Shown: in pieces, positions 18,967 to 21,870 of the stretch | How positions within the stretch are numbered: position 1 is the first letter of the stretch | Layout: each line of letters opens with the position of its first letter | Program-made: the position numbers and the translations under genes | Source of the DNA: a virus | Length of the DNA stretch: 45,044 bases | Direction: 5' to 3' (one strand) | IMG/VR virus record: IMGVR_UViG_3300009009_000021 | Span: 1 to 45,044 of that record | The notes under the pieces: model-generated | What the model saw: only the letters and a program-made list of their open reading frames with translations | Told to the model about the DNA's origin: nothing | Databases searched by the model: none

Positions 18967-21870
18967 TCACATCCAGTCAAACAGCTGTTTAACAGTGTTA
19001 GAAGAGTCCTCTTCTACAACTGAGGCTTTAATATATTCATCTACCCAATCGTTTGTACTCTTCCCAAAACGTATGAAGGCCTGTGACATGGCATCAACAT
19101 CGTCATCATATTTACCTGAAGGGAAAGCAGCAAACTGCTCTACGAAATCTGATACCCAATCCCCATAATCAGGAAGATGTGTAGCTCCAGACTCCACTTG
19201 GGGTGCTATTGACATAGCTCTGGCTTCTTTGGATTCTCTTGGAGTGAATGGAATGACTATAGGTATCTTGCTTCGTAAAGTATCTATAATAGCTTCACCG
19301 TTAGCTTTGTCTTCTATGAGTAACTCATTCGCATGAGGAAACTTTGCATATATTCTAATACAAGCATTTAAAGTTTCTAAAAATCCCATGCGGCCATGTA
19401 CTCTATCTAATAGATACCTCTTCCCCCCTGCCTTACCCCAAACATGTATTGCTACAAAGTCAGAAGTCTCAGTCTTCTTGAAAGATGCATCTAATGAAAT
19501 GATTATGTACTCTAAGTTGTGAGGTACAACACTATACGTTTTCCACCAATCTCTTTTGAAGATACCCCCCTTCTCTGGAGAAGGCCTCTGTTGGTGCATA
19601 GCATTCCATACCATAGAACCCAATGTCCCCCTTATAACCTTACAAGTTTCAGCAGAAAACTTATTAGGCCATAGAGGCTCATTCTCTTGTCGCTTATCCT
19701 CTTCTAAACCTAAATATGTATGGCCATAGGTTGAAAACTTAGCTACTTGTTGAGTTGTATCCTCTTTTAAATGAGGGAAAGAAAGGATAGACCACTTATC
19801 TGAGTCAGTGCTTAACTTAGCTAGATCAAGTAACCTACCTGCTAAATCACCCTCATGCCACCTAGTAAGAGTAACTAAGATAGAAGCATCCTTCTCTAGC
19901 CTTGTGTAGAGAGTAGATATGTACCAATCGAAAATCTTCTCTTGATATACTTTTGAATATGCTTCCTCTTGATTTTTTATTGGGTCGTCGATTATGGCGC
20001 AATTGTGGCAGAGTATTCCTTCTGCAAAGAAATTATTGTTGTCCTCAACTTGGATGTCATAGACCTTGACCTCTCCAATGCTAACTCTTTCAAATGAGGA
20101 AATGGTGTCTTCTTCGACTTGTGAAGAGTTATATGACAACTTCTGCATAAAGTTATCAAATTCGATGGATTGTTGTTCTCTCTCATGAAGTCTATATGAT
20201 GAACAATTAAAGCATCCGTCGAAGAACATATTGAACATTTCAATAAGTCCCTCTCTAAAATAAAGCCCTTCACCTTTTGAAAAAGAACCGTATAATTCTT
20301 CCCAGAGAGATATCTCGGATTTTTTGAATTCCTCATCCTTCTCGAATGAAGCAAATTCGCACAGTCCCTTGAGCAACATATAGTTAAATGAGATGAAGGT
20401 TGAAAAGAAATCCCACAAGAAGGACATTCTCTCTTCCTTAAAGTCTTTAAATTTAAACTCTCTTTGCATTCTTCGCAGTATTTCCTTGTTTTCTTCAATA
20501 CAAGTTGCCCACAAATACTGCATTTCCTTCGATTCTTTATTGAGTGATGCTCTAAAGAACACTCCCTCCCACAATAAATATCTAGATGTCCCTTTCGATA
20601 GCTCTTTAAAACGTTGTAACGTTCCCTTTGAAAAATCAATCCACAAAAGGTGCATTTTAGATAAGGTTTCAATGGAAGTAAGTCTATCTCCTCTTCTACA
20701 AAATTGAGCTTCATTATAGGAGCTGTTGGCGTAAATCCTATGTTCTTTAGTACATCTAAAATGCTTTCCTGACTTTGTTCTGAATTCAATAAGTTCATTA
20801 GATATCTCTCCCCTAGTAGCTACTACAGGTTTCCATTCACAGATATCCCTCTCATGACTATAAGAAAGAACTAACTCCCCAACTTCTATATCTTGAATGT
20901 TTCGATACCCTTCATAACATAAAATTTTTGTATTGCCAACAAAGCAATTGGCGCCCATTCCTGTAATTCCACTACCTACACCAGACCCTCTATATACTCC
21001 CTTATGCCCTACAACCTCAAAAATCTCTGAGTTTCTTAGCCAAGTACCTTGTGCTACAGTCCTTGTATTCTTAGAAAAAAGTTTTGTGTTTGGAAATACT
21101 TCCTCATACTCAGGAGAGTCTATTATACGTTGCACATCTCTATTCATCCTTGACGCTAAGTCTGATGAGTAAGAACATGCTATGATCTGAGCATTTGGAT
21201 TCTTTCCTAAAATATATGCTGGAAGCCTACGTGATACTAGTTCTGAATTATGAGTAGGTATTAGCATTCCCCCAACCAAGTAAAGACCATCAGGAGAATC
21301 TACTTGAATACAATTCCCTAACTCCTGTTCACTACCTTCAAGTCTTCTAACAGATTTTATCCCTATCCTTATCCCCAAAGGTAGTTTATACCGATTTTTA
21401 AGCTCCTCAAGTTTAGTAACACTTAAAAAGAAGTTAGTTTCTACAGTTCTATATGTTTGAAGCTCTTTATCAAAGATAGTCCACTCATGATTCTCATGGC
21501 ATTTTATAATCTGCCCATTAGTAAACTCTATCTCTACATCTGCTATAGTCTTTTCCGAGAGAGCTATTACTCTTACCGGCCTACCTGATGGATGATATAC
21601 ATAATCACCTACTGACAGATCACCATGAGTCTTCCAACCATTTGGGGTACGCATTAAAGTAGAATCAGCTAGTTGCTTACCTGTCCTCGGTGGTAAAAAT
21701 ACCATTAATCTTTTTATGTTACCATTAACAAACTCATCTAAATATTTACAAAGAAGCCTATGATGCCAATTCACTTCATAATCAGGCTTTGTATACCTTG
21801 CAAAATTTAACAGGGATCTTCTCGCTTTTTCTAAAGCCAACTCTTTGCTTGTGTAGTCTAACTTATACAT
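18967..21870 (-). CDS. Terminase large subunit precursor with two inteins
   Basis: 967-residue precursor; removing two inteins (66-208 and 309-623) leaves about 509 residues, normal for TerL. It is the ATP-driven packaging motor and DNA-cleaving nuclease. Exteins: Walker A PPRTGK/SELVSRR split after Lys65, GSGITGMGAN joined to CAIIDDP (Walker B, split just before Cys624), TLTRWHEGD (coupling motif), and the RNase H-like nuclease acids in ISLDASFK, LLIEDKANG and YDDDVDA. The terminase is inactive until both inteins are spliced, since each interrupts an ATPase motif. Weak RBS (TTAGAG). It follows TerS by nine bases. An HNH gene overlaps it in another frame. Confidence 0.95.
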   Translation of the reverse strand: MYKLDYTSKELALEKARRSLLNFARYTKPDYEVNWHHRLLCKYLDEFVNGNIKRLMVFLPPRTGKQLADSTLMRTPNGWKTHGDLSVGDYVYHPSGRPVRVIALSEKTIADVEIEFTNGQIIKCHENHEWTIFDKELQTYRTVETNFFLSVTKLEELKNRYKLPLGIRIGIKSVRRLEGSEQELGNCIQVDSPDGLYLVGGMLIPTHNSELVSRRLPAYILGKNPNAQIIACSYSSDLASRMNRDVQRIIDSPEYEEVFPNTKLFSKNTRTVAQGTWLRNSEIFEVVGHKGVYRGSGVGSGITGMGANCFVGNTKILCYEGYRNIQDIEVGELVLSYSHERDICEWKPVVATRGEISNELIEFRTKSGKHFRCTKEHRIYANSSYNEAQFCRRGDRLTSIETLSKMHLLWIDFSKGTLQRFKELSKGTSRYLLWEGVFFRASLNKESKEMQYLWATCIEENKEILRRMQREFKFKDFKEERMSFLWDFFSTFISFNYMLLKGLCEFASFEKDEEFKKSEISLWEELYGSFSKGEGLYFREGLIEMFNMFFDGCFNCSSYRLHEREQQSIEFDNFMQKLSYNSSQVEEDTISSFERVSIGEVKVYDIQVEDNNNFFAEGILCHNCAIIDDPIKNQEEAYSKVYQEKIFDWYISTLYTRLEKDASILVTLTRWHEGDLAGRLLDLAKLSTDSDKWSILSFPHLKEDTTQQVAKFSTYGHTYLGLEEDKRQENEPLWPNKFSAETCKVIRGTLGSMVWNAMHQQRPSPEKGGIFKRDWWKTYSVVPHNLEYIIISLDASFKKTETSDFVAIHVWGKAGGKRYLLDRVHGRMGFLETLNACIRIYAKFPHANELLIEDKANGEAIIDTLRSKIPIVIPFTPRESKEARAMSIAPQVESGATHLPDYGDWVSDFVEQFAAFPSGKYDDDVDAMSQAFIRFGKSTNDWVDEYIKASVVEEDSSNTVKQLFDWM
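19992..20798 (-). CDS. HNH homing endonuclease encoded out of frame inside TerL intein 2
   Basis: 268 residues in the +1 frame relative to TerL. Three zinc-ribbon Cys sets (C49/52 with C76/80; C93/96 with C108/111; C125/128 with C142/146) precede a complete HNH domain: CSIC (188-191), IVHHIDF with His201, NNNPSNLITLC with Asn213, and CRSCH with His222, all catalytic or zinc residues present. This is the usual architecture of phage HNH homing enzymes. GGGGAGAG (20806-20813) sits seven bases before the ATG, a strong RBS inside the intein. Conserved domains fall between intein blocks B and F, where endonucleases normally sit, but out of frame. The last 28 residues overprint blocks F/G. Confidence 0.85.
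   Translation of the reverse strand: MNLLNSEQSQESILDVLKNIGFTPTAPIMKLNFVEEEIDLLPLKPYLKCTFCGLIFQRERYNVLKSYRKGHLDIYCGRECSLEHHSIKNRRKCSICGQLVLKKTRKYCEECKESLNLKTLRKRECPSCGISFQPSSHLTICCSRDCANLLHSRRMRNSKNPRYLSGKNYTVLFQKVKGFILERDLLKCSICSSTDALIVHHIDFMRENNNPSNLITLCRSCHITLHKSKKTPFPHLKELALERSRSMTSKLRTTIISLQKEYSATIAP
20002..20946 (-). other. Intein 2 in TerL (class 1) at the Walker B region
   Basis: 315 residues (309-623 of the precursor). Cys1 opens CFVGNTKILCYEGYRNI (block A), CTKEHRI is block B with Thr and His, KVYDIQVEDNNNFFAEG is block F, and ILCHN ends with the His-Asn dyad before Cys+1. All class 1 splicing residues are intact. Residues about 400-590 show no LAGLIDADG or in-frame HNH motif and look like an overprint of the HNH gene read in another frame. 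Extein junction GMGAN/CAIIDD is seamless. Confidence 0.9.
21247..21675 (-). other. Intein 1 in TerL (class 3-type mini-intein, Gln1) in Walker A
   Basis: 143 residues (66-208). It starts QLADSTLMRTPNGWKTH: Gln at position 1, so no N-terminal nucleophile. Block B reads CHENHEW with Trp130 two after the block B His; block F reads GNCIQV with Cys187 where class 1 inteins have Asp; the end is IPTHN with Thr206 before His-Asn. This is the Trp/Cys/Thr triplet that defines class 3 inteins. Ser209 (+1) completes the P-loop GKS. No endonuclease domain. Class assignment follows known family rules. Confidence 0.9.

Follow-up and report, generated by a model that had tools for sequence, protein, structure and literature searches.

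An HNH endonuclease gene nested out of frame within a phage terminase intein, a probable hidden homing gene

By the textbook rule, the homing endonuclease of an intein is translated within the intein. The terminase large subunit gene (terL) of virus record IMGVR_UViG_3300009009_000021 raises the question of what a complete endonuclease ORF is doing inside an intein when it lies in another reading frame. The window, meaning the whole stretch of DNA that was analysed, comprises 45,044 nucleotides (positions 1 to 45,044 of that record). The element is very probably a mobile class 1 intein, inserted in TerL at the Walker B motif, with its homing endonuclease encoded by a separate gene nested in the +1 frame. 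The terL gene and its second intein have the following parts:

18967..21870, minus strand: ORF of TerL (terminase large subunit), 967 codons (967 aa), interrupted by two inteins
20002..20946, minus strand: intein 2, class 1, 315 aa, at the Walker B site, junctions GITGMGAN/C...CHN/C AIIDDP
20944..20946, minus strand: codon of C1 of intein 2
20002..20004, minus strand: codon of the terminal Asn of intein 2
20662..20946, minus strand: N-terminal Hint half of intein 2, residues 1-95, predicted to be well folded
20128..20661, minus strand: middle of intein 2 in the intein frame (spacer), residues 96-273, conserved solely in being stop-free
20002..20127, minus strand: C-terminal Hint half of intein 2, residues 274-315

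The ORF is assigned to TerL by PHROG 38 (E 7e-107) and PF17289 (E 2.5e-14). Both ends of intein 2 score above the curated cut-offs of TIGR01445 (32.0 vs 24.5 bits) and TIGR01443 (40.2 vs 15.6), as does the intein against Pfam PF14890 (43.4 vs 35.8 bits), and C1, the TxxH of block B, the Asp of block F and the terminal HN/C are all present. Across 16 aligned inteins, C1 at the nucleophile position, T66 and H69 of block B and N315 of the C-terminal HN315/C+1 are invariant. In the AlphaFold model, both Hint halves have pLDDT values above 90 and residues 96-273 fall below 50; one row from an annotated phage record was left out of the alignment for structure prediction. Foldseek matched the Hint part, at E 4e-8 and weaker, to the mini-inteins BIL2, DnaB, RecA and gp41-1. 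When the frame of intein 2 was scanned with Pfam and PHROG, no nuclease was found. A group I intron was ruled out, as an Rfam gathering search of the window and seven loci matched no intron or other RNA family and the host (TerL) frame is open throughout.

Two neighbouring observations concern the same region. Intein 1 of TerL (window 21247-21675, minus strand) occupies the Walker A site (GK/Q...PTHN/S), with Gln replacing Cys1 and an apparent W/C/T signature, and the solved structures closest to it include those of the class 3 DnaB intein of M. smegmatis (6bs8) and of MchDnaB-1 (6rix), at E 7e-15; intein 1 is likely of class 3, which would place a class 1 and a class 3 intein in one gene. Directly downstream of terL lie three tandem paralogues of ~115 aa (window 17698-18048, 18125-18469 and 18536-18880, minus strand), two of which gave weak, sub-threshold matches to RebB ('killing trait', R-body; E 0.01-0.02).

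The nuclease and its start occupy the following positions, in the +1 frame relative to the host:

19992..20798, minus strand: nested HNH endonuclease ORF, 268 aa, ATG at 20798, stop at 19992
20806..20813, minus strand: Shine-Dalgarno (SD) sequence GGGGAGAG, 7 nt upstream of the HNH ATG (20798)
20655..20798, minus strand: HNH N-arm, residues 1-48 (the first 34 predicted to be disordered), overprinted on intein block B
20361..20654, minus strand: zinc-ribbon part of the HNH core, CxxC pairs, residues 49-146
20118..20237, minus strand: HNH catalytic domain, residues 188-227, with CxxC, HH 200-201, N209, N213 and CxxCH 218-222
19992..20108, minus strand: HNH C-arm (TPFP...SMTSK...ATIAP), given by intein blocks F and G when read at +1, under double constraint

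This frame scores 24.0 bits against Pfam HNH (PF01844; cut-off 21.4) and matches the HNH endonucleases of PHROG 1271 at E 1e-20. Seven residues (C188, C191, H200, H201, N213, C218 and H222) are invariant in 19 HNH sequences. In the AlphaFold model, confidence drops only at residues 1-34 and briefly near 158-160, with pLDDT of about 90 in the core, and the solved HNH nucleases returned by Foldseek match it only weakly (E 3e-3 for the best plausible one). A PDB sequence search with query P0002 found no match, and a profile gave weak HNH and zinc matches. Separately, the HNH core (HNH domain, window 19992-20798) scored 42.6 bits against an IscB model, well under its cut-off of 175, which suggests that the core may belong to an IscB-like HNH subgroup. 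The SD sequence is strong, being equalled by 2.3% of minus-strand ATGs vs 17% of the starts of long ORFs. The initial annotation had described a complete gene for a 268-residue zinc-ribbon HNH protein with all its catalytic residues, out of frame inside intein 2 and preceded by a strong ribosome-binding site seven bases from its ATG, in an intein with intact splicing blocks and no in-frame endonuclease motif in its middle. Its coordinates proved exact, and the model matches and the scans of the intein frame bear out the rest.

Whether both frames are real was examined through their stop codons. When synonymous codons of the HNH protein were resampled with the codon usage of the gene itself (4000 trials), 22.0 stops were expected in the intein frame; none is observed, and none of the 4000 resamplings was stop-free. 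The third frame of the HNH region holds 38 stops vs 28.6 expected. In the reverse test, in which the intein protein was resampled, 10.6 stops were expected in the HNH frame and, again, none is observed. Both frames are thus open over the overlap, as initially annotated, and the absence of stops in both against the resampling expectation indicates that selection holds both of them open. Synonymous resampling at 23 loci gave the same picture for the host frame, with zero stops at every locus vs 3.9-33 expected.

The arrangement recurs widely. A homologous HNH ORF at host +1 inside TerL was found in 43 records (contigs counted once), with GC contents of about 0.32-0.70; this set, which includes several near-identical records, came from searches with the HNH protein and its alignments. 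Relatives with the HNH domain in the intein frame, which would point to a recent frameshift, were looked for among these records, both frames of which are open, and not found (0 of 43, all lying at host +1). The splicing domains of the intein are confirmed by Pfam in eight further loci, and block motifs are present in most others. For L205, L211, L218 and L219 the enclosing open frame alone was verified, L004 is a partial copy, and the distant matches L029-L031 and L220-L222 have no enclosing ORF. A scan of bacterial and archaeal genomes with the first HNH alignment found no relatives. Two isolates are among the carriers: Gordonia phage Clown (L007, MT771343), with an unannotated nested HNH at 2385-3527 in a gene annotated as terminase alone, and Synechococcus phage S-EIV1 (L008, KJ410740), with an unannotated one at 2704-3699. 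Being cultured, both phages would be good experimental models. Further apparent inteins were seen in L009, downstream of the TerL motif RWHCFHEDTLI, and in the C-terminal half of TerL in L012, where there is a second Hint_2 match (residues 840-875).

This recurrence bears on the explanation that the HNH ORF is displaced through a sequencing or assembly artefact, or through the decay of an in-frame endonuclease by two compensating indels. Two records could be read that way. Two small shifts break both the TerL and the nested HNH ORFs in L025 (2681-5102), and L005 (1-293) has lost the catalytic middle of the HNH and most of the nuclease core with both frames still open; these are likely decay stages or errors, and L005 likely marks a route from an intein with a nested HNH to a mini-intein. 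The explanation is scarcely credible, however, given that the same offset is kept with both frames open in 43 records from many assemblies and isolates across that range of GC content, and that the intein frame actively avoids stop codons. Across the whole family, the constant offset in the 43 records rules out a frameshift artefact.

The way in which substitutions are distributed over the overlap indicates which frame is selected for what. In the overlap core of L011 and L017, differences number 23/20/74 at HNH positions 1/2/3, the HNH third positions being host first positions, and the exteins show the usual pattern at host positions (41/21/127). Amino acid identity in the core is 0.81 for the HNH, 0.56 for the intein frame and 0.57 for the unused frame. 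This comparison of codons among relatives agrees with the initial reading, since HNH third positions change while core residues of the intein frame drift, and it indicates that the intein frame of the core is kept open while its residues drift. The two arms behave differently. The first ~48 and last ~38 residues of the HNH protein are overprinted on functional intein sequence, leaving the core alone as separate coding; for instance, the intein's DTIS...VYDIQVE...VHNC, read at +1, gives the HNH tail TPFP...SMTSKWK...SSTTA. Substitutions are fewer and more evenly distributed in the arms than in the core (4 differences in 35 codons vs 117 in 229 between L121 and L015). The proposal that the intein frame is a mere spacer therefore holds over the HNH core and fails at both ends, where the two proteins share doubly constrained sequence. 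The predicted structures are in keeping with this, the HNH core and both Hint halves being folded and the intein-frame middle disordered. The wider initial interpretation, in which the nuclease gene is nested out of frame and has its own start, is supported by these comparative data. The case amounts to a same-strand overlap of ~800 nt in whose core selection acts on the sequence of one frame and, in the other, mainly against stops.

How the HNH frame is entered is a further question. Programmed +1 ribosomal frameshifting would fuse the TerL N-extein and the N-terminal half of the intein to the HNH, with no need of internal initiation. The offset of the main family, always host +1, would suit such a mechanism, as would the absence of a good SD at the homologous start in some loci. 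It is nevertheless unlikely: a strong SD-ATG stands at the homologous position in both the window and L009 (GGAAGGAG-7-ATG), a separate case (L032/L033) lies at +2, and no shared slippery site was noticed on informal inspection. Internal initiation remains the preferred reading. A convincing SD at one homologous start is not present in every locus, others having weaker or different candidates, so that some phages may use another initiation site or mechanism.

Evidence of mobility comes from the distribution of the element and from one clear case of transfer. The TerL relatives fetched around two groups number 160, of which 152 are empty at the site, 7 carry the intein and 1 is ambiguous; in L125 and L126, GANCLIVDDP is uninterrupted. 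L040 lacks the ~1 kb insert of L024 and is 96.6 and 94.1% identical to it in nucleotides on the two sides over 6.4 kb. The L024 intein is 87.4% identical to that of S-EIV1, and the C-extein of L024 (downstream TerL) shares 80.1% identity with S-EIV1 and 94.5% with L040. In the 12 nt adjoining the L024 insertion, the match is 0.92 to S-EIV1 and 0.50 to L040. The pattern in these three phages is as would be expected of homing with co-conversion. HNH, intein and TerL distances are strongly correlated (r 0.92-0.93), and a Mantel test did not separate transfer from vertical descent, which the comparison of L024, L040 and S-EIV1 did; because all three correlate, much of the history may have been vertical or local. 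At the level of sequence, the element is shown to be polymorphic and horizontally transferred, its arrangement to be conserved and both of its frames to be real.

These data also bear on a role in packaging, in which the HNH would be a nuclease that helps TerL, like HK97 gp74, and sits in terL for co-expression rather than for homing. Its location fits this idea, and the HNH nuclease of HK97 acts with terminase in cos cleavage (PMC10448857). Yet TerL is uninterrupted in close relatives whose site is empty, and a regular-expression scan of their fetched flanks found no such HNH; the HNH is missing from most TerL relatives, and where present it is carried in an intein bearing the marks of transfer and co-conversion. 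We regard a packaging role as very improbable.

For the preferred reading, a nested homing gene, the following mechanism is proposed. A single terL mRNA, assuming that the gene is transcribed, would be read twice. Translation in frame 0 would yield TerL with its intein, the Hint halves folding around a disordered loop of ~178 residues, and the intact catalytic residues suggest that the intein would then splice itself out. Internal initiation at the SD and ATG of position 20798 would give a free zinc-ribbon HNH protein, as suggested by this SD-ATG, by the selection on its frame and by the SD-ATG of L009. The nuclease may cut or nick intein-less terL alleles of co-infecting phages, to judge from its family and the pattern of transfer. 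Repair would then copy the whole intein together with the nested gene, consistent with L024, L040 and S-EIV1.

The arrangement may have arisen more than once. L032 (2775-3731) and L033 (982-1665) carry a different HNH (PF13392, HNH_3; PHROG 15471) at host +2. It lies in an intein-like insert in the C-terminal part of TerL, at a site other than Walker B; the insert is recognised by a Hint_2 match and a C-terminal block (YDLTLES...NC), without a full intein model match. A single-query search with the L032 HNH found itself alone. The other HNH family at host +2 suggests that the nested arrangement originated at least twice. Inteins with an overprinted, separately translated homing endonuclease probably form an unrecognised class of mobile element, which arose at least twice (in one form at Walker B, as a PHROG 1271 HNH at host +1, and in another elsewhere in TerL, as a PHROG 15471/HNH_3 nuclease at host +2), occurs in phages that differ greatly in composition and has been systematically missed by annotation. 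It seems to be an overlooked means by which a selfish element brings along the enzyme for its own copying, present in dozens of diverse phages, and it would break the textbook rule on where an intein endonuclease is translated. Intein surveys that follow the host frame only may have scored such inteins as endonuclease-free. In the sequenced isolates Clown and S-EIV1, an unannotated nuclease gene is exposed, and the origin and expression of a hidden homing gene become testable in culture.

In large mobile inteins, the homing endonuclease (LAGLIDADG or HNH) is a domain in frame with the intein, placed between blocks B and F. The element described here resembles them in its Hint halves, in nuclease coding between blocks B and F and in a sporadic distribution with empty and occupied alleles; it differs in that the nuclease lies outside the translation of the intein and the middle of the intein frame is a non-conserved, disordered spacer. 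It is an intein by every testable feature, although not a conventional endonuclease-containing one, because its own frame holds no nuclease. With mobile group I introns that have nested homing endonuclease ORFs it shares a separately translated endonuclease gene within a self-splicing element, but splicing here would act on the protein, none of the intron models matches and the host frame stays open along its whole length. In split inteins with a free-standing endonuclease between the halves ('fractured genes'), the nuclease is likewise translated apart from the splicing halves, whereas here the intein is contiguous and the endonuclease gene overlaps it in another frame. The HNH core belongs to the same family as the phage endonucleases of PHROG 1271; what sets the nested HNH apart is its location and the overprinting of its N- and C-arms.

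In the literature searched, with most subscription papers outside its coverage, no description of an intein with an out-of-frame endonuclease was found; passages located by keyword in a survey of mycobacteriophage inteins, which discusses many TerL inteins, make no mention of hidden nucleases (PMC5050341). The sole near precedent in that literature is the ShiLan domain (Arsenault, Gosselin and Gogarten 2025, PMC11855218), a hidden out-of-frame HNH in mycobacteriophage methylases; the authors of that study detected no splicing domain in it. The initial annotation, which knew of no described equivalent, was thus too strong as regards a hidden out-of-frame HNH (PMC11855218), and stands in so far as ShiLan has no intein. 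Both have an out-of-frame HNH with zinc fingers, an open host ORF and a sporadic distribution, and the HNH in the methylase of phage Mantra is a distant tblastn relative of the nested HNH of Clown (35%, E 4e-7). ShiLan occurs without splicing domains in a non-essential methylase and uses the third frame and a GTG start without a detectable SD (PMC11855218), whereas the element in the window lies in a genuine intein of an essential gene and has an SD-ATG and the +1 frame. The puzzling ShiLan domain would thereby be connected to inteins.
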